Below are positions 19,201 to 62,820 of a stretch of DNA of 64,000 nucleotides, piece by piece. This DNA comes from Antedon mediterranea (lineage: Eukaryota; Echinodermata; Crinoidea; Comatulida; Antedonidae). The stretch covers positions 191,001 to 255,000 of the forward strand of contig NC_092675.1 of the NCBI RefSeq assembly GCF_964355755.1. The letters are read 5' to 3'. The position numbers were made by a program, and so were the translations under genes. Under the pieces are notes generated by a model. It ran no database searches. It was given only the letters and a program-made list of their open reading frames with translations, and was not told the origin of the DNA. The first letter of the stretch is position 1. Each line of letters begins with the position of its first letter.

Positions 19201-22200
19201 CCTTTTCTCAATTTAGTAGGTGTAAACAGGTAAAAGAATGTAATTCCTTGACGTCAGCAATCCAAAAGTATTTTCATTCAAAATCATATGTTCAGTACAA
19301 ACCGCAATCCTTTATTGTTTTTCCTCACTTTTTTCTTTTCCAATATGCTATGACATTTATTATTATTATTAAATTCCCTTAGTTATTGCAATGAAAAGGT
19401 AATTTTTAATTTAATTTCCATTGTTTTAGTTGGAATACATTTTTAAAATAATATATGCTGTTTAATATAGTATAAACATTTTTCAAAAAAAAAATGATTT
19501 ACACTGTTACAGTAATTATTAGCAACTGGTTTTGGTTTAGAAATTAGACATCAGTTTACAATTGCAATAAGATATGTTTGTCATTGTTTCAATACAGATT
19601 GCTTGTTTAAATGACATCCTTTATTCAGTGTATTCCTTCCTATAGAAATGGTCACAATCTTATAGGATTGTATGATCTCTCACCCATCATTATAAATGGG
19701 TACTGTGGATAATTGTTATGTCCTAGACATTTGTCACTGTGACTATAATTGCAAAAAGTAAATATTTCCTAGTTCAATTAAAGGTGCACGATTTCTGATC
19801 CTTCAGGGATAGATTCATATTTCCTGTATATTGTCAAATCGAAGCCTTGTGTAAGAGTTCATGGTTTAGCCAAAGGTTAACCACAACACAGATCAAATGT
19901 GATTTGAGGTATCACATAATTAAAATTTCTTTTTAAACTTTTGACTTTTAAACCGAATTGATTTTGATTACTAACTGCGATTACAACTAATTTAGTTTGA
20001 CTACTAATGAGCTTTTTAAAACTAAATTGAAACTTAAACATCAAAGAAAATTATACAATACAAATGATAGACAAAGAAAGTATGAACACCGAAAGAATAA
20101 AAGAAAGTATACAATACAAATGATAGACAAAGAAAGTATGAACACAGAAAGAATAAAAGAAAGTATACAATACAAATGATAGACAAAGAAAGTATGAACA
20201 CAGAAAGAATAAAAGAAAGTATACAATACAAATGATAGACAAAGAAAGTATGAACACAGAAAGAATAAAAGAAATTATACAATACAAATGATAGACAAAG
20301 AAAGTATGAACACAGAAAGAATAAAAGAAATTATACAATACAAATGATAGACAAAGAAAGTATGAACACAGAAAGAATTAAAGAAATTATACAATACAAA
20401 TGATAGACAAAGAAAGTATGAACACAGAAAGAATACAATACAAATGATAGACAAAGAAAGTATGAACACAGAAAGAATAAAAGAAAGTATACAATACAAA
20501 TGATAGACAAAGAAAGTATGAACACAGAAAGAATAAAAGAAAGTATACAATACAAATGATAGACAAAGAAAGTATGAACACAGAAAGAATAAAAGAAAGT
20601 ATACAATACAAATGATAGACAAAGAAAGTATGAACACAGAAAGAATAAAAGAAAGTATACAATACAAATGATAGACAAAGAAAGTATGAACACAGAAAGA
20701 ATTAAAGAAATTATACAATACAAATGATAGACAAAGAAAGTATGAACACAGAAAGAATAAAAGAAATTATACAATACAAATGATAGACAAAGAAAGTATG
20801 AACACAGAAAGAATTAAAGAAATTATACAATACAAATGATAGACAAAGAAAGTATGAACACAGAAAGAATAAAAGAAATTATACAATACAAATGATAGAC
20901 AAAGAAAGTATGAACACAGAAAGAATAAAAGAAATTATACAATACAAATGATAGACAAAGAAAGTATGAACACAGAAAGAATAAAAGAAAGTATACAATA
21001 CAAATGATAGACAAAGAAAGTATGAACACAGAAAGAATTAAAGAAATTATACAATACAAATGATAGACAAAGAAAGTATGAACACAGAAAGAATAAAAGA
21101 AAGTATACAATACAAATGATAGACAAAGAAAGTATGAACACAGAAAGAATTAAAGAAATTATACAATACAAATGATAGACAAAGAAAGTATGAACACAGA
21201 AAGAATAAAAGAAATTATACAATACAAATGATAGACAAAGAAAGTATGAACACAGAAAGAATAAAAGAAAGTATACAATACAAATGATAGACAAAGAAAG
21301 TATGAACACAGAAAGAATTAAAGAAATTATACAATACAAATGATAGACAAAGAAAGTATGAACACAGAAAGAATTAAAGAAATTATACAATACAAATGAT
21401 AGACAAAGAAAGTATGAACACAGAAAGAATAAAAGAAATTATACAATACAAATGATAGACAAAGAAAGTATGAACACAGAAAGAATAAAAGAAAGTATAC
21501 AATACAAATGATAGACAAAGAAAGTATGAACACAGAAAGAATAAAAGAAATTATACAATACAAATGATAGACAAAATACAAATGATAGACAAAGAAATTA
21601 TGAACACAGAAAGAATTAAAGAAATTATACAATACAAATGATAGACAAAGAAAGTATGAACACAGAAAGAATAAAAGAAATTATACAATACAAATGATAG
21701 ACAAAGAAAGTATGAACACAGAAAGAATTAAAGAAATTATACAATACAAATGATAGACAAAGAAAGTATGAACACAGAAAGAATAAAAGAAAGTATACAA
21801 TACAAATGATAGACAAAGAAAGTATGAACACAGAAAGAATAAAAGAAAGTATACAATACAAATGATAGACAAAGAAAGTATGAACACAGAAAGAATAAAA
21901 GAAAGTATACAATACAAATGATAGACAAAGAAAGTATGAACACAGAAAGAATAAAAGAAATTATACAATACAAATGATAGACAAAGAAAGTATGAACACA
22001 GAAAGAATAAAAGAAATTATACAATACAAATGATAGACAAAGAAAGTATGAACACAGAAAGAATTAAAGAAATTATACAATACAAATGATAGACAAAGAA
22101 AGTATGAACACAGAAAGAATTAAAGAAATTATACAATACAAATGATAGACAAAGAAAGTATGAACACAGAAAGAATAAAAGAAATTATACAATACAAATG

Positions 22201-25003
22201 ATAGACAAAGAAAGTATGAACACAGAAAGAATAAAAGAAATTATACAATACAAATGATAGACAAAGAAAGTATGAACACAGAAAGAATTAAAGAAATTAT
22301 ACAATACAAATGATAGACAAAGAAAGTATGAACACAGAAAGAATACAATACAAATGATAGACAAAGAAAGTATGAACACAGAAAGAATAAAAGAAAGCAT
22401 ACAATACAAATGATAGACAAAGAAAGTATGAACACAGAAAGAATAAAAGTTTGTTTTTATGTGAGGTAAAGTAAAATGTAACTACAATACCCCCCTCCCC
22501 CCTCCCCCCTCCCCCCACTACAAATAAACTTTAAAAAATAAAAACAAATTATTTTTAAAAAGACAAATTAAGAACAAAGCAGTATAAATGAAATATATGA
22601 AGCTAATTTAAAAGAAAGAAACAATTGTATTATTTAATATTATTAGTTTTTATTACATTAAATGTATTCGGCTTATTTTGATAATTAGATTGTAGTATAG
22701 GAAGGATACTCAATTTGTTAAAACTGTGAGAATCCAAGCAAATGTATTGCATGTAATTGTTTTGGTCATAACGGCTTTAAATTTTGAAGTCTTGTGTCAC
22801 CACTTAGCTCACCAATAAAAGTGTGTCACTTCAATTGCCCACCATTACCTTAACCACACAGTGTGTAACTCAATTGCCCACTACCACACAGTTATATTGC
22901 CCACCACACCACAATGGTAGTTCAATTCTGTAAGTAGTAAACGGCTTAGATAACTTCCTGTATTTGACAGTTGGAATGACTACACCTTAAAGTAGAATTG
23001 TACTGTATTTTGTAACAAGGAAGCTTAGAGACAAAAACATGACAGATTAAAACGCATGCGTAGGTCTTCAAATGTTGTCACATTCAGATATAGTTGACTT
23101 TTACCATGCAATTTATCTAAAAGCCTAAACTTTGGTATGAATGAATGGAAGATGTAGAGCAGAAATTACCTTGGCTATTGTTTTAATGAAAAAAAAGTCA
23201 ATTTTGAAATAAAAATAATTTGATCAATTCTGTTATTAAAGATATCCACAAAAAAAATTTTTTTTTGGATGTGCAATTTTGATGTTTCATAATAGTTATT
23301 CCTATTGACCAGAAACATATTGGATCAAAACAAATTGTTTACCTGGAAAAACTGCAAAATAATAGTCAAATTAGGTGCCAGCCAATTAACTGTTTGTTTT
23401 GTCTTTTTATAAGTGAAAGCATTTTTTTTCTGCCGAAGTGACTTTATTAAATAAAACTACAAAATGGCTTAATCAAAATCTGATTTTAAAAATCTTAATT
23501 TTTATGTTTTGTTTCATGTTTTTCATGACCTTTATTGTCATTTATCATGACCTCTATTGTCATTTGTCATGACCTCTATTGTCATTTGTCATGACCTTTA
23601 TTGTCATTTGTCATGACCTATTGTCATTTGTCATGACCTCTATATTGTCATTTATTGTGTGACAATTTACTTCACACCAAAGGAAACGATAAAGGATATT
23701 TTATAGATTTGTTTGCTACTTTCAATAATATGAATACAATGCATAATTATGAAATTGTTGAATATCAAAATATTGTTTGCATGAGTATTGAAAAGCTTTT
23801 TGATTGTGTTAGCAGAAACATAAAATGAACCATTATCTGCAATTGAGTTAGATTTCATCTTGATAAAAAGGATAGATATAAATTAAATACCTAAAACAAT
23901 TGGTGTAACTATGCAGTTCAACACACTGATAAATGGTGTAACTATGCAGTCCAACACACTGATAAATGGTGTAACTATGCAGTCCAACACACTGATAAAT
24001 GGTGTAACTATGCAGTCCAACACACTGATAAATGGTGTAACTATGCAGTCCAACACACTGATAAATGGTGTAACTATGCAGTCCAACACACTGATAAATG
24101 GTGTAACTATGCAGTCCAACACACTGATAAATGGTGTAACTATGCAGTCCAACACACTGATAAATGGTGTACTATGCAGTCCAACACAATTGGTGTAACT
24201 ATGCAGTCCAACACACTGATAAATGGTGTAACTATGCAGTCCAACACACTGATAAATTAAAAATCATTGCAAAATGCCACACACCTGCTATGTATAGGAA
24301 TAGGGATTGAGCTTTGCATGAAACGACCCTAAAACAGATTTAGGAACTCATTTGATGTATCATAATCAGGGGCTGCACCTTCAATTTCGGAAATTGTAAT
24401 GCAAAAGATAGGACAGCCCTCCCTATTTCAGATTCCTGGATCCACCATTGATAATGCTGTAAATATTTAAAACTCATATGACAAGATATTTTTGTCCTCT
24501 TTTTATTTGTTATACACTTGTTTATTTATTTATTTATATGTTGAGCATGCACCTTTGAATCAGGACAGTGGCACTCACAATATGCGGTGCGGTCCAAGAA
24601 ACAAAACAGAACATATTGGAAAATAAAAATACATGAATAACTAACTGTAACTAATCTAAAAACAAAAATATCTAGAAACTACAGTTACTTGGTTGTAATG
24701 TTATCTTATTTGATTAACATAAGTTTGTAAGTGCCGTGTCATATCATATTGTATTCAATTTATAAATTTTTTTAGGAGTTTATTCTCAGAATACACACAG
24801 ATCCTGTTCATAACTAAGTACTTCTGTTCAGAGAAAAAAAAATTCACACCATTTTTATTTTCAGACAACTTTCATCATCACAGTTGAGCAATTCACGGAC
24901 ATCACCGTGGTTACCTTCAAGCCCTCACAAGGCTATGACTCCAGTGAGCCAACGGATGTCGCGTTTGTACCTGAACAAGTCTCTAGATAATCTAGCCTCT
25001 TAA
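4292..25003 (+). CDS. TTLL7: Tubulin polyglutamylase TTLL7 orthologue, complete, 17 coding exons
   Basis: The product should ligate glutamates onto tubulin tails (TTLL7 prefers beta-tubulin in mammals) in the cytoplasm and axonemes. Coding exons: 4292-4367, 5079-5237, 5540-5597, 5874-5937, 6227-6294, 7894-8052, 8828-9044, 11526-11690, 12234-12389, 12922-13110, 13426-13686, 14029-14106, 14475-14771, 15555-15683, 16545-16789, 17160-17330, 24865-25003. Phases agree at every junction and give 876 residues, close to the vertebrate length. The TTL ATP-grasp core (about 70-400) shows INHFPAMGEICRKD, FIVKPSNGSMGQG, EGYKFDLRIYVLVTS, YMHLTNYSINK and LKPWLLEINRAPSFGTD. A basic helical segment (about 400-520) matches the TTLL7 microtubule-binding region, and IFPPPDK, FLAGRAASLQKE, LNDMRIKFPGKT and FNRLLWSHGQGLWNCF identify TTLL7 rather than TTLL4/6/13. 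Intron 15 seems to use a GC donor. Introns carry large tandem arrays. Confidence 0.93.
5961..6000. repeat. Terminal fragment of the CTCTGTCTACACTATCAAAC inverted-repeat element
   Basis: One terminal repeat (TAAAGCTCTGTCTACACTAT, then CAAACTAGTTTGACA) is present in TTLL7 intron 4 without a matching partner nearby. It is a solo end left by truncation. Confidence 0.6.
6306..7024 (-). mobile_element. 5'-truncated LINE inserted at the TTLL7 exon 5 splice donor
   Basis: On the minus strand, 6983-6429 encodes the C-terminal region typical of LINE reverse transcriptase proteins: SFVPSIITHWNELNNEI, then FKKLLLKSNLF, HTRIRLGFSCLNSHLF and a CTCG...HFLCYCP cysteine-histidine motif. The T-run at about 6303-6327 is the 3' poly(A) tail read from the other strand. 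A 14 bp direct repeat, AAAGTAAGTCATTT, flanks the element at 6292-6305 and 7025-7038 and is the target-site duplication. It contains the splice donor of TTLL7 exon 5 (exon ends 6294). Only about 0.7 kb of the element was copied; no RT catalytic core is present, so it cannot move alone. Confidence 0.9.
7146..7813. repeat. Dispersed inverted-repeat element expanded internally into a 69 bp minisatellite
   Basis: The outer ends are imperfect inverted repeats: ACAGTAGAACCACTATTAAG with GGGGACACC on the left, and GGTGTCCCTAAGTAGGGGATCTACTGTA on the right. Between them are about eight copies of a 69 bp unit (roughly 7217-7775) built on GTGTCCCCTGGATAAGGG and GCTGCCTGCCACTAGTTTG. The open minus-strand frame here exists only because 69 is a multiple of three. 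The array lies in TTLL7 intron 5. Confidence 0.85.
8071..8240. mobile_element. MITE-like element with CTCTGTCTACACTATCAAAC termini
   Basis: The left end TAAGCTCTGTCTACACTATC and the right end ending GACAGAGCTTTA are inverted repeats around a 170 bp body. The body has the family's AATATGGTA boxes and a GGCATCATG box. There is no coding capacity, as expected for a non-autonomous DNA element. It sits just inside TTLL7 intron 6, 18 bp past exon 6. Confidence 0.8.
9130..11283. repeat. 57 bp minisatellite, about 38 copies, with a TTAGGGTTAGG motif in each unit
   Basis: The array fills most of TTLL7 intron 7. Each unit contains TATGCATGCATTGAGGATG, an AGTACTAGTACAG palindromic stretch and GTTAGGGTTAGGTT. 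Variation is limited to a few positions (GCATGG, GTATAG or GCATAG, and ATGCATG or GTGCATG). The 721-codon open frame on the minus strand (11259-9094) results from a period of 19 codons lacking a stop and has no protein-like features. The exon 7 donor lies about 85 bp before the array. Confidence 0.95.
11711..11762. repeat. Short relic of the CTCTGTCTACACTATCAAAC element
   Basis: TAAGCTCAGTC, then TTTTTTGTCACATAAACTTT and GATAGTGCAGACCGGGCTTT, resemble the two ends of the element family brought together by an internal deletion. It lies about 20 bp after the exon 8 donor. Confidence 0.4.
12640..12765. repeat. Diverged copy of the GTAGAACC/GTGTCC dispersed element
   Basis: AGGTTCTGCTGTATTC is followed by a 35 bp stretch (TTAAAAGTTTCTCAATAATT and on) that also borders the copy ending at 7813. 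Further on come GGTGTCCTCTTAATAGCG and TTCGACT, the family's closing motif. It is in TTLL7 intron 9 and has no tandem expansion. Confidence 0.55.
16970..17095. repeat. Unexpanded copy of the GTAGAACC/GTGTCC dispersed element
   Basis: AGAGTAGAACCCATATTAAG and AGGACACCTTCGGGACCC open the copy; GTGTGTCACCTGAATAGGAG, TTGGCAATAGTGCCACTTGT and a GTCCCAAGTGAGGGG end close it. It carries a single copy of the motif that is tandemly amplified at 7217-7775. It lies in TTLL7 intron 15. Confidence 0.6.
17460..18650. repeat. 27-28 bp minisatellite (about 38 copies) inside a GTAGAACC/GTGTCC element
   Basis: The left flank (CTACAGTAAAATCTTGATTG, AGGAGACACCTTTAAGACC, ATAGTGATTGGCCATAGTG, TACAAGAAAGTGTCAT) is a further copy of the dispersed element. 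The unit GTGTCATATAGGGGTGTTCC plus TTTCCAA then repeats from about 17,600 to 18,625, with 24 bp units lacking ATA and 28 bp units with an extra A or G. The open frames on both strands are artefacts of the repeat. It lies in TTLL7 intron 16. Confidence 0.9.
18651..20041. other. TTLL7 intron 16 sequence between arrays, nothing recognised
   Basis: AT-rich intronic sequence. Short open frames here lack splice context, homology-like motifs or codon structure. Confidence 0.6.
20042..22449. repeat. 56 bp A-rich minisatellite, about 43 copies
   Basis: The unit is a tandem of TTATACAATACAAATGATAG, ACAAAGAAAGTATGAACAC and AGAAAGAATAAAA. Copies alternate between AGTATAC and ATTATAC and between AATAAAA and AATTAAA, giving a higher-order mosaic. 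Several deleted units occur (for example near 20433, 21570 and 22345). All the Phe/Leu/Cys-rich minus-strand frames here are translations of the repeat. It lies in TTLL7 intron 16. Confidence 0.95.
22487..22516. repeat. C-rich low-complexity tract (CCCCCCT)n
   Basis: Four runs of five to seven C separated by single T, about 40 bp after the 56 bp array. On the minus strand this is four G-runs, which could form a G-quadruplex; that is inference from pattern only. Confidence 0.8.
23215..23520. repeat. Dispersed AT-rich repeat, copy 1
   Basis: A series of boxes (TTAAAGATAT, ATAGTTATTC.TATTGACCA, GATCAAA, TTTACCTGGAAAAA, TTTTGTCTTTTTATAAGTGA, ACTACAAAATGGC) recurs in the same order at about 33170-33430 and partly at about 15290-15420 (AACTTTATTAAAACTACAAA). 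No coding capacity or clear termini. Confidence 0.5.
23523..23650. repeat. 22 bp minisatellite, about six copies
   Basis: The unit TCATGACCTCTATTGTCATT plus TG repeats with small indels. It lies in TTLL7 intron 16. Confidence 0.85.
23883..24258. repeat. 33 bp minisatellite, about 11 copies
   Basis: The unit AACACACTGATAAATGGTGT plus AACTATGCAGTCC repeats almost without variation, with one shortened unit near 24165-24190 (AACACAATTGGTG). Because 33 is divisible by three, both strands show false open frames. It is the last array before TTLL7 exon 17. Confidence 0.92.
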
Positions 25004-41890: not shown

Positions 41891-44800
41891 TTAAACGTTT
41901 GCGTACAGCGCTTCTTCTTGTGGAACATTGTCGTACACTTCAAAGGCAAGTAAGTGCTCAAGTATTGTTTTGTAAATAAACTCATATTGTGACTATACAA
42001 TAAAGAAACAGATAAATAATTTAGCACAAATAACAATTGTCTAAAAAACAAATGTATGGAACTGAGGATTAGGCCCTCTACATGCCCACTAGCCTCAGAG
42101 TAGGATCACGACTGGGTGTGCTTACTTGTTTTTTGTATAAGGAAAACCAAATTAAAAAACAGGTGAAAGAGTTTTCTTGCTATCGAAGAAATGACAATTT
42201 GATTAAAATTCTTAAACAGGTAAAAACTTGATTTCATGCAATATCATGATTATTTTTTAATGCATCAATCATGTCAATAGCAAATAAGAAAATAGAAGAA
42301 CTTACCAATGTCTGTACCATCCCTAATCTGTTGTTTCTCAACAACTTAACGCTCTGCAATATATCAACTGTCTGCTCCTCAAGTAATCTACGAAGACTGG
42401 ACATAGTTGCGCAGAACACTCCAGTACGCCCCAAACCATCTCTGATTAAGTGAAATTGAATAAAAATAAGAATAAAGAACATAACAATTTTAATAAGAGT
42501 GGACTTTAATTCTTAAAATCGTATGTGTGAGCACAAAAAACAAAATCAAGATCCAAGTATTCTGTCATTAAACATCTTGGTGTGTGACTGCACATCAACA
42601 AAGATTACAGTGGTAGTAACTGCATACTCTTCGTGTCTCTAGAATTGGAAGTACCAATTAATGGTCGTTTCATTCATTTACTCTTTAATTATAGAGGAAG
42701 TCTTTAATTAGAGGTACAGACAACGCTAAAAAACTAACACTCTTGAGCTGGCACACAAAAATATAAATGAAAAAGAAAATTTTCTTTCATAGTTTCTTTT
42801 TTCTTTTTATATTATATACTGTCATCTCATTATTGGAGGTTGTTTAAAGAATAGTATGGTTTTAATTGGATTCCTTCATGTTCCCACACTCTTTACTTTA
42901 CTTACAAGCACATAACCATAGTAGGGTCTTCTATTTCACACTCTTTACTTACAAGCACATTACAACCACAGTAGGGTCTTCTATTTCACACTCTTTACTT
43001 ACAAGCACATAACAACCACAGTAGGGTCTTCTATTTCACACTCTTTACTTACAAGCACATAACAACCACAGTAGGGTCTTCTATTTCACACTCTTTACTT
43101 ACAAGCACATAACAACCATAGTAGGGTCTTCTATTTCACACTCTTTACTTACAAGCACATAGCAACCATAGTAGGGTCTTCTATTTCACACTCTTTACTT
43201 ACAAGCACATAATAACCACAGTAGGGTCTTCTATTTCACACTCTTTACTTACAAGCACATTACAACCACAGTAGGGTCTTCTATTTCACACTCTTTACTT
43301 ACAAGCACATTACAACCACAGTAGGGTCTTCTATTTCACACTCTTTACTTACAAGCACATAACAACCATAGTAGGGTCTTCTATTTCACACTCTTTACTT
43401 ACAAGCACATAACAACCATAGTAGGGTCTTCTATTCCACACTCTTTACTTACAATCACATAACAACCATAGTAGGGTCTTCTATTTCACACTCTTTACTT
43501 ACAATCACATAACAACCATAGTAGGGTCTTCTATTTCACACTCTTTACTTACAAGCACATAACAACCATAGTAGGGTCTTCTATTTCACACTCTTTACTT
43601 ACAAGCACATAACAACCACAGTAGGGTCTTCTATTTCACACTCTTTACTTACAAGCACATAACAACCATAGTAGGGTCTTCTATTTCACACTCTTTACTT
43701 ACAAGCACATAACAACCATAGTAGGGTCTTCTATTTCACACTCTTTACTTACAAGCACATTACAACCACAGTAGGGTCTTCTATTTCACACTCTTTACTT
43801 ACAAGCACATAACAACCATAGTAGGGTCTTCTATTTCACACTCTTTACTTACAAGCACATAACAACCATAGTAGGGTCTTCTATTTCACACTCTTTACTT
43901 ACAAGCACATTACAACCACAGTAGGGTCTTCTATTTCACACTCTTTACTTACAAGCACATAACAACCATAGTAGGGTCTTCTATTTCACACTCTTTACTT
44001 ACAATCACATAACAACCATAGTAGGGTCTTCTATTTCACACTCTTTACTTACAAGCACATAACAACCATAGTAGGGTCTTCTATTTCACACTCTTTACTT
44101 ACAAGCACATTACAACCATAGTAGGGTCTTCTATTTCACACTCTTTACTTACAAGCACATAACAACCATAGTAGGGTCTTCTATTTCACACTCTTTACTT
44201 ACAAGCACATAACAACCATAGTAGGGTCTTCTATTTCACACTCTTTACTTACAAGCACATTACAACCATAGTAGGGTCTTCTATTTCACACTCTTTACTT
44301 ACAAGCACATTACAACCATAGTAGGGTCTTCTATTTCACACTCTTTACTTACAAGCACATAACAACCATAGTAGGGTCTTCTATTTCACACTCTTTACTT
44401 ACAAGCACATACCAACCATAGTAGGGTCTTCTATTTCACACTCTTTACTTACAAGCACATACCAACCACAGTAGGGTCTTCTATTTCACACTCTTTACTT
44501 ACAAGCACATAACAACCATAGTAGGGTCTTCTATTTCACACTCTTTACTTACAAGCACATACCAACCACAGTAGGGTCTTCTATTTCACACTCTTTACTT
44601 ACAAGCACATAACAACCATAGTAGGGTCTTCTATTTCACACTCTTTACTTACAAGCACATAACAACCATAGTAGGGTCTTCTATTTCACACTCTTTACTT
44701 ACAAGCACATTACAACCATAGTAGGGTCTTCTATTTCACACTCTTTACTTACAAGCACATAACAACCATAGTAGGGTCTTCTATTTCACACTCTTTACTT

Positions 44801-47800
44801 ACAAGCACATTACAACCATAGTAGGGTCTTCTATTTCACACTCTTTACTTACAAGCACATAACAACCATAGTAGGGTCTTCTATTTCACACTCTTTACTT
44901 ACAAGCACATTACAACCATAGTAGGGTCTTCTATTTCACACTCTTTACTTACAAGCACATACCAACCACAGTAGGGTCTTCTATTTCACACTCTTTACTT
45001 ACAAGCACATAACAACCATAGTAGGGTCTTCTATTTCACACTCTTTACTTACAAGCACATTACAACCATAGTAGGGTCTTCTATTTCACACTCTTTACTT
45101 ACAAGCACATACCAACCACAGTAGGGTCTTCTATTTCACACTCTTTACTTACAATCACATAACAACCATAGTAGGGTCTTCTATTTCACACTCTTTACTT
45201 ACAAGCACATAACAACCATAGTAGGGTCTTCTATTTCACACTCTTTACTTACAAGCACATTACAACCACAGTAGGGTCTTCTATTTCACACTCTTTACTT
45301 ACAAGCACATTACAACCACAGTAGGGTCTTCTATTCCACACTCTTTACTTACAAGCACATTACAACCATAGTAGGGTCTTCTATTCCACACTCTTTACTT
45401 ACAAGCACATTACAACCATAGTAGGGTCTTCTATTCCACACTCTTTACTTACAAGCACATTACAACCATAGTAGGGTCTTCTATTCCACACTCTTTACTT
45501 ACAAGCACATTACAACCATAGTAGGGTCTTCTATTTCTGATTGCCAATTGTTAACTACAGTAACAAGCTGTAGAAAATCTGCTGTTGATTTTGGTGTGAA
45601 GCTGTTGGCTGGCCAGCCAAGAAACTCGAAGATCTTCACTTCCAAGGACTTTTTCTTTTTTGCAAACACAAAATAAAATTAGTGAAGAAAAAAAAAGGAT
45701 TTTTAACATTTACTACAGGTTTAGTGATCTAATATGAATTAAATGAACAATATGAATACTAATAATAAACAATGTTTTGAATGAAGAAAGATGAAGAAGG
45801 TTTTCTACAATAGAACAAGCAATGTGAAAAATAAAACAAAAAGGAACGTTACATTTCTATCATACTAGAGAAATATTTTAGGTTGCCAAGAAAATAATTG
45901 GAGATAAAATAAAACAGCACATTTTTTTATAAAGAAAATTGTCTCATAAATTGTAAGCATTATTGCTTTTTTTCATTGTTCTTTTCCATACAGTGCAAAC
46001 AACAAGTTGTGCTCATCAATGTTTTTTTCTAAAATTCTCATTATAAAATACACACTGTAAGACTGTAGTTGATGGATTGGAAAAAGCATAGGCAGCTGTT
46101 TTACACAGACAATGATCAGTAAAAATAGTCTACTATGAGATCTAGCCTTAAAATAAAATTGTTAATAGATATTATTTAACAAATTAGCACTCATTTTGGC
46201 TTAGCTTAATTTTGAAAAACACTTTTCTTGGCAACTTTGTAAAACATTTTCTAAACATGCAGAATAAATGATAAATAAACCAACCACCAGAAATAAAGAA
46301 AGAAAACACTAAGGAGGGAAGGAATATGCAGCCATCAAGCTAGACGCTCAGCTTAAGCCACAAGGAAACACAAAAGCTGAAACAAAAACACAAACATATC
46401 AATATAAATAATTTCAATATTAGGCCTATACATCAATTTTATTTTGCAAATTTTGAATAAAATGTTGTTTGTTAATGTGAAAGATTTACACACTTTCTTG
46501 TCACTCACAGTAAAAATATTGATACAAATGTTGATAAAAATGTTGATATAAATGTTGATACAATATAGATAAAAATGTTGATAAAAATGTTGATAAAAAT
46601 GTTGATATAAATGTTGATATAAATGTTGATATAAATATGAATATAAATGTTGGTATAAATATGAATATAAATGTTGATATAAATATGTATATAAATGTTG
46701 ATATAAATATGGATATAAATGTTGATATAAATATGGATATAAATGTTGATATAAATATGGATATAAACGTTGATATAAATATGGATATAAACGTTGATAT
46801 AAATATTGATATAAATGTTGATATTAATGTTGATATTAATGTTGATATAAATGTTGCTATAAATGTTTCTATAAATGTTTCTATAAATGTTGCTATAAAT
46901 GTTGCTATAAATGTTGCTATAAATGTTGCTATAAATGTTGATATAAATGTTGATATAAATATGGATATAAATGTTTTAATTTTAATATTTCTATGATGCA
47001 AATTTATCTAGGCTATTTTCAAAGAACGCTTTTAAATTTATTTTGAAATATTTTTAATAAAGAATCATTTCTAAATTAAATAACCTGCTTTTTGAAAATG
47101 TCTGTGTTTCCGCAGCTAAAACAAAAATTTCCGAACAATCGCAATTACGCAACAATATGTCCTTCAGGCGGAATCAGTAAAACCTTGTTTCCACGGGCAG
47201 TTTATCGATTAATTATTGGTTAATTCTTGGCTGCGGAAATACGTAATAGTCGTATCTGTATGTATGTTGGTATACAGGTCTGATTGAATGAATGATGGAT
47301 AGTCATATCTGTATATATGTTGGTATACAGGTCTGATTGAATGAATGATGGATAGTCATATCTGTATATATGTTGGTAGATATTAATAACGTTATATGCT
47401 TCTATATTTTTCACAACCAAGATTTATACTTATACGGCAACAATAAAGCATCACAAATGATAAAATACTAAAAATAAACATCATATAAATAAAACATCAG
47501 AAATATAGTGCTTAACAAATGCTTAATTTGAGATGCAAGAATGTTAAATGCCACATATCCCACAATTTACAAATGCATACAGCAAAAATAAAATAAAAAT
47601 ACATTAAAACATAGGCATACATTTTACATTTAATTTTTTTTAATACTATTTTTTGTTTTTGCATGTAAACAACACGGTAATTGCTATAGCTTACCTTAAA
47701 ATAAATAACAAATGTATACAAATAAATTAGAAATACAAATTTGAAGATTTGAAGATTTTGCAGAATGAACAAGATAATGAAAGCATACCTCATCATTCTT

Positions 47801-50800
47801 GGTAATATCAAATGAGTGAATGTTAATATGTCTTGATAATTTTTCACTTGTTAATGAAGATACTGTCAGGTACTTGAAACTGAATTGCAGATTCAAATCT
47901 GGCCAGAACTCTGCTACAGTCTAAAGAAATACAATAACACAAATTAGTTAGTTACAATACTTATATACAATATTATAATAACAATAAGAATACTTAAATG
48001 AATGGAGGGGATAAAGAGAGAAATGATAAATAACCACAACATTGTGAAAGGCTAAACTACAACATAAGCCTTAGGCACAGGTTAGTATAGTGAATGATCT
48101 TAGATACTACATACCCTATCTCGGTTCACCATGTCAGTGAGAACGACAATAGCCCGCGAGTTGTAGTCAACCACCATTCTCCAAAAGTCTTCAATAGTGT
48201 TCTCCAGCGGAGTTTGAGTACCAATAAACATGTCCTTTTTATCAAAGCTCTAAAAATAAAAAAGACCGTAAGATCCACCATTCTTACCTTTCAACCTTGC
48301 ATTCTAACATTGTTAATGTTATATTATGATGTAGATATAGATGTAGATATAATTTTACTTTGTTACAGAGGGTTCTGGATATCTGGGCCCTGGATATATC
48401 AGCTACAGAACAGCTGGGATATTCAGCTTGTGGATTTATAAGCTACAAAGTAGCTTGGATATATTACCCCTGGATATTTTACTTACATCAAAGAAGGAAG
48501 CATTTATGTAATCTGATGGTCCATCTTCACCTGGAGTCATAATGAATGGTCGATTACGGTCAACTACACAAGACAAATTATCCATAATTAAAGTGATTAA
48601 ATGTCTGACATGGTAAGGCATAAATGTACATATATAATAACCATCCTATATATTTTCACTTTTACAGACAGCTATATTTTTCTTTCAAGGGATGTTCTTG
48701 TGAAAGCTTACACCAAGTACTGTATATGGTATATTTCTTTAAACATGAATGTGCATCAAAAATTCTTAAGGTTAATATTTAAACATTTGGACATAAGTAT
48801 CATTGACCCCATTTACACTTACAATTTGGGCTATCACAGGACAGGGCCTGGGTTGGCAATCGATAAGTGTAAATATTCCATAAAGATAGCTGGCCCTGGA
48901 CTCGAAAACCTAAACCACCTCTCGGGTCCAGTAGCGGCTTTTATGCTTGGGCCGGCTTATGCAGTGAACCGTGACCAATAAATGGATTGAGAAAATGAAG
49001 TAAATGAATCCCCAGGACCGTCATTTGGAATGCTGGATCAGGCTCCATAAATTAAATTTTGACCCAGTTCTGGAGCAGCCCAGTACCCAATTGTAAGTGT
49101 AAATGGGGTCTTATATTGTAAACAGTTGCCAATTAAATGAGGAAACCCCGGTAAAATACTATGAAATAATGTATCCTAGGAAACAATTGCTCAACTTCCT
49201 GACAAAAAAATTATGAAAATGAAAGTTAGACTTAACTTACAAGGCACCAAATCAGGATATCTGTTTTTGTCTCTGTTTTCAGGTCGGAATCCTCCAGTAA
49301 TTTTATGACCACCAAGAATTGATGATAAACCTTGAAGTGCCTGATAAACAAATAAAATAATTTGGTTTAATATCAAGTTGTATTGCAATTAGCATACAAG
49401 TAAAGGGTATACCTTCTATCTATTTAAAAGATGTACACGGGTTTTTTTTTATAGTGAAGAAGAGTAAATTTGATGGTGCATAAGAATTATATCAGAGTTC
49501 ACACAGAGGCATAAGGGGGGCAACTGATCACATGATCACATACATCAGTTGTAAACTCAGATATGATTCAGATTAGCTTAACCCTGTTCCATGTACTCTA
49601 GTGTGTGTGAATATTTACAGTATTATGTTCTTATCAATGTGCAATATGCTCATATTCAAGTTGATTCTTTTAAATTGTTTGTCGAGACAAGGAGTTATTC
49701 TAGATACCTTCATGGTTAAGGTTTTGGTTTTTTATATGTACCTTACATCCATAATCATTTTTAAAAATAAACTTACTTCAAACTCATCTGCGATATAAGA
49801 CTTTTTAGACTTGGGGTTGATAGCCCTGAGTTTTTGGTAATGTTCCTTGAAGTCTGATGCAGCACGTGATGTGTCTCCAAAGAGGACGAACTCTAGAATA
49901 GTTTTATATACAAACAAGTACTGCAACTACAAAAAAAACAAAACATTTTGAACATTTTTTTTTTTCAGGATACTAAAAGCTGGTTTTATCTTGTGTAAAG
50001 TAATTTTCTGATTTATCAATCATATAAATATATAGCTTAAAAGTAAATATCATCATCTTAAACGCTAATCGTCATTAGACATTGCACGTCTCACTTGTGT
50101 CCGCCACTCTGTATGTTTTTAAGCAGGCATGTGTATAGGTCCACATGTAAAATGTTCTGTTTCCTTTTTTTATGTTTGCCATACATTTTTTTTCGGTCTT
50201 CCTTTTGGTCTTTTAGTCCAAAAGTAAAACTAGTGATGAACAATATATCAAAATTAAGTTAACAATGTACATCTAGTTAATATAGTAGTTACCGGTGTTT
50301 GGACCATGTTTGGCCTACGTTCACGCATATCTTTCACAAATTCTAGAATGTTAATCTCTCCAGTTTCAGTTGCCATTTTCATCATCGCGTCAATTGCTAT
50401 TATCGCTCCTGTTCTACCAGCACCAGCACTACAAGAAATAATTTACATTACATTATATACATTGATGTGATGAAGTATAACCTCATGCTTGAATGGACCA
50501 TATATTACATTTATACTTTATTTACTTACATTTTATCAACCTTATCAACGTCATGCATAATTATTATATTATATTCTTCTCTTATATTAAAAACTTTAAA
50601 CCAATCTATTACTTATTGTTCCATTACCTGCAATGTACTAAGATTGGTCCAGCATTTGATGGTGTTTCGTTGTTTATAACATTTAACATATTGATGACTG
50701 GCGATGATGATCGAGGTATGTTCTTATCTGGCCATATGAAAAAGTGGTATTGCTTTACATATCTTACTTCTGTACCCTAAAAAATGAGGAAATGAATAAC

Positions 50801-53800
50801 CTAGTAAAAAAATTAGATAATACCACTACCACTTTTTAACCAGTTTTCACATGCACTTGTACAAATTGAATTTAATTCAGCTTGTATAATTCAAGTCAGG
50901 TGTGATCCTAAAACACAAATCAACCTGTGACTACTATTTACAGCAATGTTAGAATTTGATTTACACAAATTACAAACTTATATTTTTATGTATCGTCTAA
51001 AAAATCACTCCTTACCAAATCATATTATTTCTTTATTACCTAAACAACAGCCTGATACTCACAATAATAATAATAACAGGATTTTTATAGCGCACATACC
51101 ACTCAAGAGTGCTCAAGGCGCATTCAAAAAAGCAAAACAAATCATACAAATGCCCGACAAATAAAATGCAATTTCTTTGGAGGGTCCCCATCCGTTCTCG
51201 TTCTGTCGCGGTCCCGGACCCCTACCTAGGTGACCAAACAAAGGAACAGGATACACATTTGCCTTGCCACAGACGACCGGGTGCTCAGAGACAACAACCA
51301 AGACAGAGGCACCCCAAAGATAATGCTGGTCAGGAAAAAGTATACTATACAATTCAAGAACTTTAAGAAACCTCATGATTTCCATATGCCTTAATGAATA
51401 AATGTGTTTTTAATAATTTTTTAAAAGTATCAACAGTTTTGCAAAATCTGATAGAGCTCGGTAGAGCATTCCATAGACGAGGAGCAGTAACGGTGAAAGC
51501 TCTGTCTCCCCATGAGTGGTGAGACTTAGGTTGATGTAGAAGCAGCGTATCACTAGAACGCAGATTCCGTCTGGGAACATACAGCCTAAGCATGTCAGAA
51601 ATATATTCAGGAGCCATGCCATTAATAGACTTAAAAACAAAGAGTAATATTTTAAAAACAATGCGGTACCTAACAGGAAGCCAATGCAAAGTTTCCAAGG
51701 TATTTGATATGTGTGCATATCTTGGTAGTTTTTTAACAACTCGTGCCGCTGTATTTTGAATCAGCTGAAGCCTGTGGAGTTGTTTTTGTGGTAGCCCATA
51801 TAGCAATGAGTTTCCCATATCCAGTCGTGAAGTGACAAAAGCATGAACAAGTTGTTTAGCTGCTGCCTCATTAATAAACTTTCGAATCCTTCGGATGTTT
51901 CGTAAGTGAAAAGACAACGTAGAAATAGTTTTTGAGATATGAGAAATCATAGTCATACCCGCATCCATTTCAACCCCTAGATTTCTAACCTGCCTAGCCG
52001 GGTCTATTTGGGTTTCACCAATGTAAATAAAACTTGGTGGCAGTTTTTCCAACTGCAGCTTTGATCCAAAGAGAATATATTCTGTTTTTTCATCATTTAA
52101 GAAAGTTGTTTTTCATCCAGACATGCAATTCATGGATACAATGTTGGAGCAATTCCAAAGAAATGTCAATGTGTGTCATTGTAGGTTTAAAAGAAATATA
52201 AATCTGAGTATCATCAGCGTAAACATGATAGTACAGATCATATTTACTAATGATATCCCGTATTGGGTGTAAATAAATTGTGAACCATTGCGGCCCAATT
52301 ACAATACAAGATTTGCTTAAACAAATATTTTATCTGAAAAGCATACATTTCATTTAAGAAGAAAATCGATTTTTTATAATGGTCCAAAACTATGGAATTT
52401 ATTAAGTATTTCATTAAAATCTCTTCCTAATCTACCTTTGTTCAAATCTAACCTAAAAAAGTCTTTGGTCGCAGCATATGGCAGCTAAATCTCCCGTTCT
52501 TGTTCTTCTTGTTTCCTTTCTTCTTCGCTTAATTGAATTGAATACCTTATAATATTGTTGATCTTGTAATTGTACTATTGTCTTAGCAATTTAAGCTTCT
52601 GTATTTTTATTNNNNNNNNNNNNNNNNNNNNNNNNNNNNNNNNNNNNNNNNNNNNNNNNNNNNNNNNNNNNNNNNNNNNNNNNNNNNNNNNNNNNNNNNN
52701 NNNNNNNNNNNNNNNNNNNNNNNNNNNNNNNNNNNNNNNNNNNNNNNNNNNNNNNNNNNNNNNNNNNNNNNNNNNNNNNNNNNNNNNNNNNNNNNNNNNN
52801 NNNNNNNNNNNGTAAGCCGGACTGCTATTGTATACCTTCATTATTATTATTAGTTTTTTTTTTTAACCCTTTTTAACTGGTGGTCACGACTTAAAGTTGT
52901 CCGCAACTTATTTTGACCTCCATCCGCACATTTTTGATTTTTTTTGGTTTATTGTAATTTTCTTATTTGCAATTTGTAATTTTTATCTTTTATTTTAAAA
53001 TGTGTGGAGAAACTAATAAAACAAACAAAGAACTGGTACTATATAGAGTAATTTCCATACAGTTTTTTTTTTTTTAATTACCCTGGTTCATATTACTCTT
53101 ATTTATAAGTAACCTGAAACATCTTACCTTCACTACTTTAAGTTTCCTTGTAAGATAAGATGTTTTGGAAGTTTCCTTCAAGAAAGAAACATTTAACTCT
53201 CCATATTTGTTTACGTTTTCTGGCCAGTATTGTGTGCATTTATTCTACAAATAAAATTATAAAAACTGACAATTATAAACACAAAAATTGAAATGTATGT
53301 CATTTCTATATTTCAGTAAAAAAGCATTTACTGTATTTAAAATCACATTCTGAATGTGGTAACAAATATAATAGTTTTTTTTTACTTTTTAAGATAATAT
53401 ATAAGTAATATATCATAAAACCTTGAAAAGAAGCCTATCTCAAAAAGAAGTGCCCTTTTTAGTTTGCATAAGAAATCTCGAAAAGAAGGCCATCTCGAAA
53501 ATGTATTTGTGTTTTGAGGCCTATTTAAGAGTCCTATAACCCATGGGCTTCAATTCCCGTGTTACGGTAAACAATATAATTTGTTTGTAATAATCTGCTA
53601 TTTAAGCAATAGAATTCATGTTCAAGTCTTAGTTGCTGCAGACTTTATTTATTAATTTATTGGTTCTCTCCTTTAAAACAACTCCATTAACAGGAACTCT
53701 CTTGAAATGAGATGTTCACAAACAATATCAATATGCAGGAGAATGCTTAATAGCTTCAATCTAATGACAAGATTTCATTGCAATTGATGCAGTGTAATTT

Positions 53801-56800: not shown

Positions 56801-59800
56801 CACTATTTTATATTTTTTAACATGGGTATTGTGGACATGGACATTTCTACACATACAAACATACTTATGTGGTGTTAAGAAATGTATGAGTCAAGAAAAT
56901 AAATTTTTTAAAAAGCAGCGTTTCTGTATAATCTAATTAAAGAAATATGTTTTGATGGAATTTACTTACATTTTCCATGCCAGTACAACAGCAAAAACCA
57001 AGAGAAGAAGAACAGCAATCAGAACAATTACAATTACTGTTGTATCAATACCACCACCACCATCATCATCATCTGTATTTGGAGAATTATCTGTAGCCTC
57101 TACAAAATGAATTCTTATTTATTTCTACTTCTACTGTAATAAACTACTGTATAAGCTTACTCTGTCAAACAAATAGATATTAAAAATTGAAGGGGGATGG
57201 GAGGTACAGAGAATAATTATAATTAATAGCAATGTGATTTTTTTTAGAAAACGTGTATTTGCATTTAAGGTAATGAGATCCAAAGTTTGGGACCTATTGC
57301 TGAGAATAGTAACAGTTTTATGATGGGGTATGTAAATATCAAATCTATTTTGTGTGTTCTGATTGTGTATTGAGTGATTACATTTGTCAGGGTAGAAGAG
57401 AATTTAAGGAAGCATAAAGCAACAATCATTGTTGAACAGAGTTAATGTTTGAGGACATTAAGTTTGGCAAAAGGCAAGATGAATGAGAGAGTGCGAGATA
57501 TTATATATTATCCTGATAAGCTTTTTAAAAATAATCTTGTTTGTTTAGGATGGAAATGTAAAGTGATACCCAAAACAATGTTGCAGTTGCTCAGATAAGG
57601 AACAATAAAGTATAAATAGTATAATTATAAAGAAAATATGAAGACAATCTAAAAATGATACTAAAACTCTTGCAAACTTTACTTTAAATATCAAGAATGT
57701 GTTTTTTCCAGAATAAAGAATGATATAATTAGAAATAAAGTTGATTGTTCTGTTTTTTTTTATGGTTGGGATTGTTAATTTACATTATAAAATAAACACT
57801 AATTGTTACAAAACAAATCCTTTATATTTTAAGACCTAGTATTTTGGATCATGATGAAGGGCTAGTGTTTTCCAAACGCTCTACTAATTTTTCTGGCTGT
57901 TTTAATTTATCATTTTGATTTAGCTTTTTGCTTTTTTTGTATCTCCATTGAGATCCAGCCACTGATACCCACAGCATTGTCATTTTTTCAGTAATTTGCC
58001 TTTGGATTTATATATATATATAAATATTTTGTATATACTGTAATAATTAAACAAAATAAAATAAAAAATGTGTTTTAGCAGCTAGATGTAATGTAAAAGA
58101 TTACCTTTGACAGTAACTGTAAATACGCAGCTGCCCACATTATTAACGGTATCCATAGCAGTACAAGTAACATTAGTTGAACCAATATTAAATGATGAAC
58201 CAGAAGGTGGAGTACAAGTAGCTGACAGATCAGTATCAGCATTGTCACTGACTGTGGGGTCATCCCAGGTCACTAGTGTGCCTGTATCTTCTTCAACATA
58301 TTCAACAGGACAGCTTACAGTCGGACTATCATTATCTAAAATAAATATCAGGGCCGTAGCTACCAGTAAGGTAGTGTGTGAAGACACACTATTTATAAAT
58401 CTCTTTACTATTCCCAAATAAAAATATCACTCAAAATGCATTTTAAAAATGTTTTACCATAAATAACATCCCCTTTCAGTCAGGAGGTGCTTGCTTGTTT
58501 CCCTCTCCCAACTGGACTGTATGAAATGTCTTTGTTTTCTAAATTTTTGTTTCTAATAAACTTACCATTGACAGTAACTTTAAACACACAGATTCCTGTA
58601 TTACCAGCAGTATCCATTGCATTACAAGTAACATCAGTTGAACCAATATTAAATAATGAACCAGAAGGTGGATTACAAGTAGCTGACAGACCAGTATCAA
58701 CATTGTCAATGACTATAGGATCATCCCAGGTAACAGACGGTTCACCTGTTTCAATGTCTGGGCAGGTCAAAATGGGAACACCAACATCTACAAAAAAGTG
58801 AACTCCAGTGGTTTATAAACCACTTTCATACAATACCTTGTGAAATTATAATCAATCTTTGCCTTGATATAATGTCTCTAAATTTATTAAAACTGGAAGT
58901 CTCTTGTTTGCTACTTTTGATTTTTCTTCAGTTACCCCATTCCACATATAAAACAATTGTTTTTAAATGCCCACTGTTATTTAGAGCTTTTACTGTGCAA
59001 TAGTATACAAATATTGGCTGGGATGAGGGGCATGGTTCATAGTCCGCTTTACTGTAGCTGCACGTTTAAACTGGTTGTTTTATATGTAGGCCTTGCGCAC
59101 CTAGATCGATTAAATCCAGAAATGTGCAATCTAGAAAAGGTTATACCCAGACATGGGGATAGAATTTACCATTTTTTATCAACCAATCTAATGCTGTGAA
59201 TATAAAAATTAATAAAGCATATCATGTGATACTAAATTAAACCAATCAGATAGTAAGGATTTTGTTAAAACTTTGGATGCAGTGTTTAATTACTTACCAT
59301 TGACTGTAACTGAAAAATCACAACTTCCTGTATTACCAGCAGTATCAGTAGCATAGCAAGTACCAACCCTTGAACCAATATTAAATGATGAACCAGAAAG
59401 TGGATTACAAGTAGCTGATAGATCAGGATCAACATTGTCACTGACTGTGGGGTCATCCCAGGTCACTGTAGCTTGGTTTGATGTTGATATACTCCTAATA
59501 ATGTTTCCAGGACATTCAACATTTGGTCTTTCTTCATCTATAACAACTGTAATATTTCAATAATATGTATTAAAATATAAAGACAATAAAAATATAATAA
59601 ATAAATAAATTAAAGAAAAAGGACATAAAAATCAAGCATATTTAAGTAATATCATACAATACTCGAGTAAAATAATGAAATTACTCAAGTAAAATAATGA
59701 AATTTTACTGGATAATTGAAGGTTCACCCAATTGTGTCATTATGATCTGTATGTACAATTTGAACTATTAGTAGTACAGTAAAAAACAGAGAAATTAGTG

Positions 59801-61785: not shown

Positions 61786-61871
61786 CTGGAATTTAAAAAA
61801 AGAAAAAACATTATCTAAAAAATCCCTTGCAGGTAATTCAAAATGTTAGCTTAATACTTTGATATGGGTGT

Positions 61872-62820
61872 ATGAAAGGATGCTCTACATCCCACTATCT
61901 GATTGACATGCTCAACCTTCTTTATAAAGGAACTGACAAGCCGCGCAAAACAGGACGCTTGGTTATAACAGATTTCGCTAAAGCATTTGATGTTGTTGAC
62001 CATACAGTTGCAGCAAGTGATAGTGCCAAATCCTTGATTGTTGATTGGATATGTAACTTTTTCTCTGGAAGGCGCCAAAGAGTCAAGTACCAATCGACTT
62101 TGTCAGACTGGAAAACCTTATCCCGTGGTGTGCCACAAGGTACTAAGCTTGGAGAAATTGTGTTCCGTGCCGCCATCAACGATGCTGTGAAAGAAGCAAT
62201 CTGTAAAAAGTGGAAGTTCGTTGATGATCTTTCACTGGGCGAGGTAGTTAACTCTAATGCAACGTCTACACTACAACATGATGTTGATGATTTGGTCGAA
62301 TGGGCAACCATGAACAAATTTCAATTGAACCCATCAAAATGCAAACAACTTAAATTTTGTTTCATGAAGTCGCCACCCTATATGACACCTATCAACATAA
62401 ATGGCCGTGAATTAGAAACAGTTAACTATGCAAAAATACTCGGTGTTTACATCCAGGATGATTTAAAATGTTATGTCCAGGTTGACCATATCCTTAGTAA
62501 TGGAGGAAGACGTCTACACATGCTTAGCCTTTTAAAACAGTTTGGGATTCCTTTTGAAGACCTTGTCCAAGTTTACACCACATATGTTAGACCAATTTTC
62601 GAGTATGCAATACCAGTATGGCACTCTAGTCTTACTGTTGCGCAGACAAATGCCATAGAGTCCATGCAAAAACGTGCATGTAAGATAATGTTGGGTAAAG
62701 ATTACTAAGACTACAACACTTCCCTTAAAATTTTGAAAATCAAACGACTAGATGAACGCCGCGAAAATATATGTCGTAAATTTGCTTCAGATTGTATTAC
62801 GTCTAATAAATTTAAAATGG
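61872..62820 (+). mobile_element. Defective LINE reverse transcriptase fragment
   Basis: The open frame 61872-62708 covers much of an RT domain: LVITDFAKAFDVVDH, LSRGVPQGTKLG, the catalytic FVDD box, LNPSKCKQL, AKILGVYIQDDLK and the YVRPIFEYAIPVWHSSLT thumb region. A TAA at 62706-62708 interrupts the frame between LGKDY and DYNTSLKIL; the same frame then continues through RLDERRENICRKF. The endonuclease and the far C-terminus are missing. It lies on the plus strand just upstream (in transcription terms) of the first visible phosphatase exon, probably in an intron. Confidence 0.85.

Follow-up and report, generated by a model that had tools for sequence, protein, structure and literature searches.

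A 50-bp minisatellite across the splice donor of a receptor tyrosine phosphatase exon in Antedon mediterranea, with counterparts in other genes of the genome

The window analysed here, a stretch of 64,000 nucleotides of the crinoid Antedon mediterranea (contig NC_092675.1, designated C6; C6:191001-255000), belongs to a single assembly of 354 Mb in 18 contigs. It holds, on the minus strand, a receptor tyrosine phosphatase gene in which one intron opens with a row of 53 intact copies of its own splice donor. The repeated 50-bp unit combines 35 nt of the exon end with 15 nt of the intron start, and arrays of the same construction, built from unrelated units, were found at exon ends of unrelated conserved genes elsewhere in the genome. 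The array is probably an ordinary minisatellite that began as a tandem duplication across the junction and is tolerated because the exon-proximal donor would be the one used.

The array and its host gene

The first-pass annotation of this DNA had placed about 53 copies of the unit at 42884-45535 and had described the unit as exon end plus intron start. Its limits agreed within about a dozen bases with those given by Tandem Repeats Finder (42896-45537, period 50, 52.9 copies, 97% matches), and the division of the unit, the strand and the phase were also correct, copy 1 being the exon end itself (35 exon nt and 15 intron nt). With head-to-tail units within the range of about 10-100 bp, many copies and high identity, the array is a minisatellite. 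The series of near-identical donors described in that annotation was likewise recovered, since TTGTAAGTAAAG occurs 53 times in the window, always on the minus strand, against an expectation of 0.03 (100 shuffles, largest count 2). The donors lie exactly 50 nt apart in 51 of the 52 intervals and 47 nt apart in the other, and the donor sequence from TT to GTAAAG is identical in all 53 copies over TTGTAAGTAAAG. A genome-wide search with a 30-nt junction pattern, allowing up to three mismatches, gave 52 matches, all inside this array. The features of the locus are listed below in window coordinates, with a slash marking the splice junction.

45503-45654, minus strand: D2 exon of the receptor tyrosine phosphatase, with its 5′ end at 45654 or 45648 (two possible acceptors) and its 3′ end at GTA ATG TGC TT/ (PF00102, 9.7e-6, and translation)
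45501-45502, minus strand: first, exon-proximal donor GT, TT/GTAAGTAAAG (frame restored with acceptor 42442)
42896-45537 (C6:233896-236537), minus strand: 50-bp minisatellite, 52.9 copies, 53 intact donors, copy 1 being the exon end (Tandem Repeats Finder and motif count)
42442-45502, minus strand: phase-2 host intron of 3061 nt, about 454 nt of it outside the array (sequence)
42306-42441, minus strand: next D2 exon (A GAT GGT TTG GGG CGT: C-L-D-G-L-G-R-T-G), frame intact (PF00102, 2e-9)
41930-41992, minus strand: following exon, frame intact, starting at 41992, its first part alone being marked (translation)
50429-50627, minus strand: homologous phase-2 intron in D1 (TGC AG/GTAATG ... TAG/T GCT), 199 nt, without array (sequence)

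The host gene encodes two protein tyrosine phosphatase (PTP) domains, D1 and D2, together with HYR domains in 2 of the 10 segments scanned and a hydrophobic segment (56966-57118) taken by eye as membrane-spanning. When the first donor (TT/ at 45503) is joined to /A GAT GGT at 42441, the frame reads C-L-D-G-L-G-R-T-G and a full D2 is obtained (PF00102, 200 bits, profile positions 5-234 of 234, 5.8e-59), with PTPRA as the top match in the Protein Data Bank (PDB). The PTP domain was thus found to span the exon pair on either side of the array. Past the first donor, the exon frame runs TGC TTG TAA and closes with a stop at 45499, so that any later donor adds an immediate in-frame stop, as had been predicted; the product stopped at this TAA retains 127.9 bits (PF00102 positions 5-176). 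The proposal that the duplicated piece encodes the D2 signature up to its cysteine was also supported. Active PTP domains carry a WPD-loop aspartate and an HC(X)5R signature. D2 reads GWPAN and VMCLDGLGRTG, in which the cysteine and arginine are present and the WPD aspartate and HC histidine are lost; these motifs are not those of a catalytically active domain, and D2 of this gene is probably a pseudophosphatase. A further minisatellite (12 bp x 39) lies at 46514-46975, in the intron that precedes the exon with the array, and reading frames resembling a non-LTR reverse transcriptase by eye occur in and near the gene (51363-52112, plus 61863-62708 on the opposite, plus strand, the former being on the minus strand).

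When the divergent last copy is excluded, six columns of the unit are variable (positions 2, 19, 25, 26, 27 and 33), all of them exon-derived. Six variable columns would spare all eight core donor columns by chance with P = 0.33, and the invariance of the donor is therefore not evidence of selection. Copies 2-6 carry the exon's A at position 27. The last, distal copy shows a 3-bp loss and additional bases beyond its donor. By inspection, the units meet at a short microhomology of GAA type that links TCAGAAATAG in the exon with GTGGGAACATG in the intron, given which the division of the unit into 35 and 15 nt is a choice of phase. This copy pattern looks like that of a tandem duplication later expanded through slippage or unequal exchange. 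Assemblies in general are prone to errors in tandem arrays, and an artefact has to be considered; nevertheless, the ordered pattern of the six variable columns, the distinct last copy and the single, coherent flanks make an assembly error very unlikely.

The same intron was also observed without an array. In D1 of the same gene it lies at the same codon and phase, and it recurs as a phase-2 intron of 210 nt (TGC AT/GTAAGC ... CTAG/G GAT) in a paralog of D2, L021, which lies about 70 kb from the gene and shows 47% identity over query positions 39-97. The array is consequently an addition to an ordinary intron. Twenty paralog introns at this position were sampled as close exon pairs from PF00102 matches, a choice by which long introns are under-sampled; the 19 that were measured range from 255 to 1022 nt, four have small tandem repeats away from the donor, and none has a donor array. 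In one of these paralogs (L009) the acceptor was set at 498, giving 339 nt, an earlier candidate (118 nt) not being the exon start. The genome contains at least 153 PF00102 matches, and clusters of tyrosine phosphatase exons, many with exon breaks at profile position 177, were seen at C5:7.65-8.08 Mb, C6:26.29-26.39 Mb and C6:30.46-30.51 Mb.

Donor-spanning arrays elsewhere in the genome

A genome-wide search for three tandem AG/GTAAGT motifs at 30-60 bp spacing returned at least 19 distinct arrays. The upstream edge was read in 15 of the 19; the array at C5:1.54 Mb was fetched and gave no clear edge, and three runs of short GGTAAG-type units were left out. It was found that a coding exon ends at the first donor in 4 of the 15 arrays read. 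In a DHX8-like gene (C1:17776227-17777072), an array of 37-bp units with 21 donors follows the exon end ...MQIHLTEPPG/, the next exon beginning with GDILMFLTGQEE... (PDB match to DHX8, 6.7e-58, over the joined 102 aa). In a TDP2-like gene (C1:41208047-41208945), a 31-bp unit supplies 27 donors at the exon end ...GGDTNLRDSE/, followed by VKSIGGLPGG... (PDB match to TDP2, 3.9e-35, over the joined 151 aa). Both identities rest on PDB chain matches, as Pfam assigned no family to the DHX8 segment and all its matches to the TDP2 segment fell below the cut-off. The third, an ABCC8-like gene at about 48 kb on C9, has 6 intact donors in about 8 copies after the exon end ...YIWSIPYQ/ (PDB match to ABCC8, 6.7e-16; joined exons PF00664, 1.6e-22), and the fourth, an OTUD5-like gene (C9:1704272), has at least 4 donors after ...NIEVFVYSLG/ (PDB match to OTUD5, 1.8e-25), the upstream exon alone being read.

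A mitoguardin gene (C4:35201091) with 6 donors is a probable fifth case: its downstream exon matches PF10265 just over the cut-off (9e-6), and its 24-aa upstream exon gave no match on its own. For a suspected sixth, in a gene judged transporter-like by eye (C9:25130908), no match was found. At the edges of the other nine of the 15 arrays no exon was recognised by eye from the translations, and the two of them that were also scanned gave one sub-cut-off match (L045) and nothing (L068), which means that a donor motif in an array does not by itself indicate an exon. L045 and L046 (C6:30480007-30481557 and C6:30503553-30504409), 53-bp ACAG/GTAAGTTTG arrays about 23 kb apart within a phosphatase cluster, resemble two copies of a single array, and no exon could be recognised at their edge. 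The reading frame to the first later donor likewise runs into a stop in the DHX8-, TDP2- and OTUD5-like, mitoguardin and ABCC8-like arrays (CAG GTA AGT CTT TAA in the last).

These five arrays carry AG/GTAAGT, a sequence that bears on recursive splicing, which the first-pass annotation had proposed, and on dual-specific splicing; through the repeats the intron would be removed stepwise or variable exons produced. Use of tandem AGGT sites has been reported for human UBC (PMC10809524). In the phosphatase array, however, AGGT occurs 0 times in the 2652 nt of 42886-45537, and within the 50-bp unit the AGs are preceded by purine-rich sequence and lack a pyrimidine tract. Recursive splicing was thus rejected for the phosphatase array, and as an explanation of the repeats it is highly improbable.

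Minisatellites are common in this genome. A random sample of 17 pieces of 9 kb each (153 kb) contained 4 arrays with a period of at least 15 and at least 10 copies, and the 64-kb window has 5, the phosphatase array included, which by rough scaling corresponds to thousands in the genome. Besides the minisatellite at 46514-46975, the window contains those at 9129-11284 (57 bp x 38), 17599-18625 (27 bp x 38) and 20043-22449 (56 bp x 43), and GTAAGT is absent from the consensus units of these four. A 262-bp satellite fills all 9 kb sampled at C9:10000001-10009000. Genome-wide counts of donor-like patterns and of their reversed forms were 1584+3111 vs 1520+1684 for GTAAGTA x3, 91+184 vs 1513+120 for AGGTAAGT x3, 66+59 vs 1469+79 for RAGGTAAGT, 7+75 vs 1+18 for CAGGTAAGT, and 4+48 vs 14+1 for TAGGTAAGT. 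Because these are hits and not arrays, single long arrays dominate them and the directions differ, no enrichment of donor arrays is claimed. In the random 153 kb and the window minus its array, AGGTAAGT occurred 7 times, much as in 200 letter permutations (mean 6.7, sd 4.8). At least three GTAAGTA arrays lie on C1 among the matches listed, and for two of them (L022 and L023) three flanking frames gave no Pfam match. The third listed (C1:813806-816209), of 27-30 bp units with GTAAGTAATATG in nearly every one, has more copies than the phosphatase array.

Choice among identical donors

The junction-spanning arrays have unrelated units and occur in unrelated genes, which points to a blind process, and with thousands of minisatellites in the genome some seeds are expected to fall across a donor. 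A tandem duplication that happened to span the exon/intron junction would have provided the seed, and slippage or unequal exchange would then have expanded it to about 53 copies. The true splice would run from the exon-proximal donor to the acceptor at 42442, leaving the coding sequence intact, while the other 52 donors would be intronic and mostly passengers. Transcripts arising from leakage to them would stop at once and should be removed by nonsense-mediated decay, so that the load would be small at most. Use of the first donor is implied by the D2 exons beyond the array, whose frame is intact. DHX8 is a core, essential splicing helicase; constant splicing from later donors would hardly be compatible with its function, and the first donor of its gene is presumably effective. 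This is an argument and not a proof, as the arrays may be of recent origin. The first-pass annotation had itself offered neutral growth of a tandem duplication as an alternative, and this is the reading that the evidence favours.

Some observations weigh against this account. Of two equally strong donors, the one nearer the acceptor can be favoured, and such a preference would predict heavy misuse of the array; a literature search on the choice between donors found no relevant report. None of the variable columns falls among the 15 intron-derived nt (P = 0.10), so a weak constraint on the donor side is possible, selection on the donors being significant neither here nor for the eight core columns. 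The top non-self match of D2 (C6:28769437, 39%) is continuous, and the intron is therefore not universal in the family. Finally, a control with the acceptor pattern TTTTGCAG gave 83 hits (20 for the reversed control) in 12 distinct arrays; of the eight whose downstream edges were read, by eye and without a family search, none lay at a recognisable exon start, although the pattern marks true acceptors poorly and the control is too unspecific to speak for splice-blind seeding. In two of the control arrays (L060 and L063), exon-like sequence was seen further on.

The first-pass annotation had also suggested that the array may be a decoy for U1 or a length-variable switch. An alternative is that the array acts as a regulatory dial, in which the 52 extra donors compete with the real one and the stop products reduce full-length receptor to a degree proportional to array length, a form of unproductive splicing. 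All 53 donors have the same sequence, each later one leads at once to TAA, and decay of its products is expected because exons follow the stop. The stochastic splicing of the tandem AGGT array of human UBC (PMC10809524) and the use of downstream IFI6 repeat units as donors (PMC4526556) are in line with such a device. However, the same arrangement in DHX8-, TDP2-, ABCC8- and OTUD5-like genes, with unrelated units, argues for a mutational process and not a receptor-specific device, and conservation of the donors does not exceed chance. A trade between full-length receptor and stop products would be mechanistically easy and is possible, and the dial is considered unlikely. Even less probable is a platform for U1, whereby many binding sites would strengthen exon definition or guard the pre-mRNA from premature 3′ end formation: 53 GTAAGT sites do occupy the 2.6 kb that immediately follow the exon, but the D1 intron and that of paralog L021 manage without an array, and no sign was found that the exon or the intron needs one. 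Structure in the RNA that would hide the donors was not detected, 200 nt having folded no better than shuffles (z = +1.56), a result that is neutral towards the U1 platform.

Beyond the blind origin of single arrays, a broader proposal can be made tentatively. Donor-spanning minisatellites may form a recurrent class in this genome, with a few to 53 donors and hosts that are unrelated conserved genes, a core splicing helicase among them. They might be kept because the spliceosome commits to the exon-proximal donor almost whatever the number of equal competitors, or because cells exploit the leak, and junctions might be preferred seeds. Work on how the spliceosome selects between donors of equal strength has relied mostly on engineered duplications. 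Here a natural graded series of 6, 6, 21, 27 and 53 intact donors is present in one genome, one of the sixes (mitoguardin) being probable, and its unrelated genes are natural tests of how cells choose among identical splice signals. RNA from this series would reveal which donor wins, how leakage scales with array length, and to what extent a gene tolerates the copying of a splice signal.

Relation to known systems

Minisatellite units that supply several donors have a precedent in the human IFI6 gene (6-16, G1P3), where two downstream units are used as donors and three mRNAs result, according to PMC4526556, which cites Turri, Cuin and Porter 1995, NAR 23:1854; the case is also cited in PMC2572611, PMC3618361 and PMC2915984. 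In the phosphatase gene, as in IFI6, the unit spans an exon/intron junction, placed here from the frame and the domain, and brings its donor with it. The IFI6 units are reportedly of about 12 bp and add coding sequence in frame, whereas those described here measure 50 bp, are mostly exon-derived, number 53 donors and lead to a stop from any later donor.

Human polyubiquitin UBC (PMC10809524) likewise has splice sites in every unit of a tandem array, but its units are coding and its dual-specific AGGT sites, spliced stochastically, serve as donor or acceptor; the present array is intronic, with TT/GT and no AGGT. The described tandem duplications that create introns also copy splice signals across an intron/exon boundary, although there one duplication gives a new intron, whereas here an existing intron was lengthened by about 52 copies. 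In human segmental duplications, gene structure is changed by minisatellites, which can bring cryptic splice sites into use (PMC2812944); the repeats described there average 30-bp units x 4 and elongate exons or introns, in contrast to the donor arrays found here.

The first-pass annotation knew of no described case this extreme. In number, no other junction-spanning array counted here reached its 53 donors, and a literature search in which most subscription papers were beyond reach found, going by titles and the openings of abstracts, no report of an array of about 50 donors, nor of many donor arrays in one genome. In kind the statement did not hold, given the precedent of IFI6 and the other arrays of the same genome. 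Therefore, the kind of element is already known from IFI6, and its recurrence across genes in one genome is the new part.

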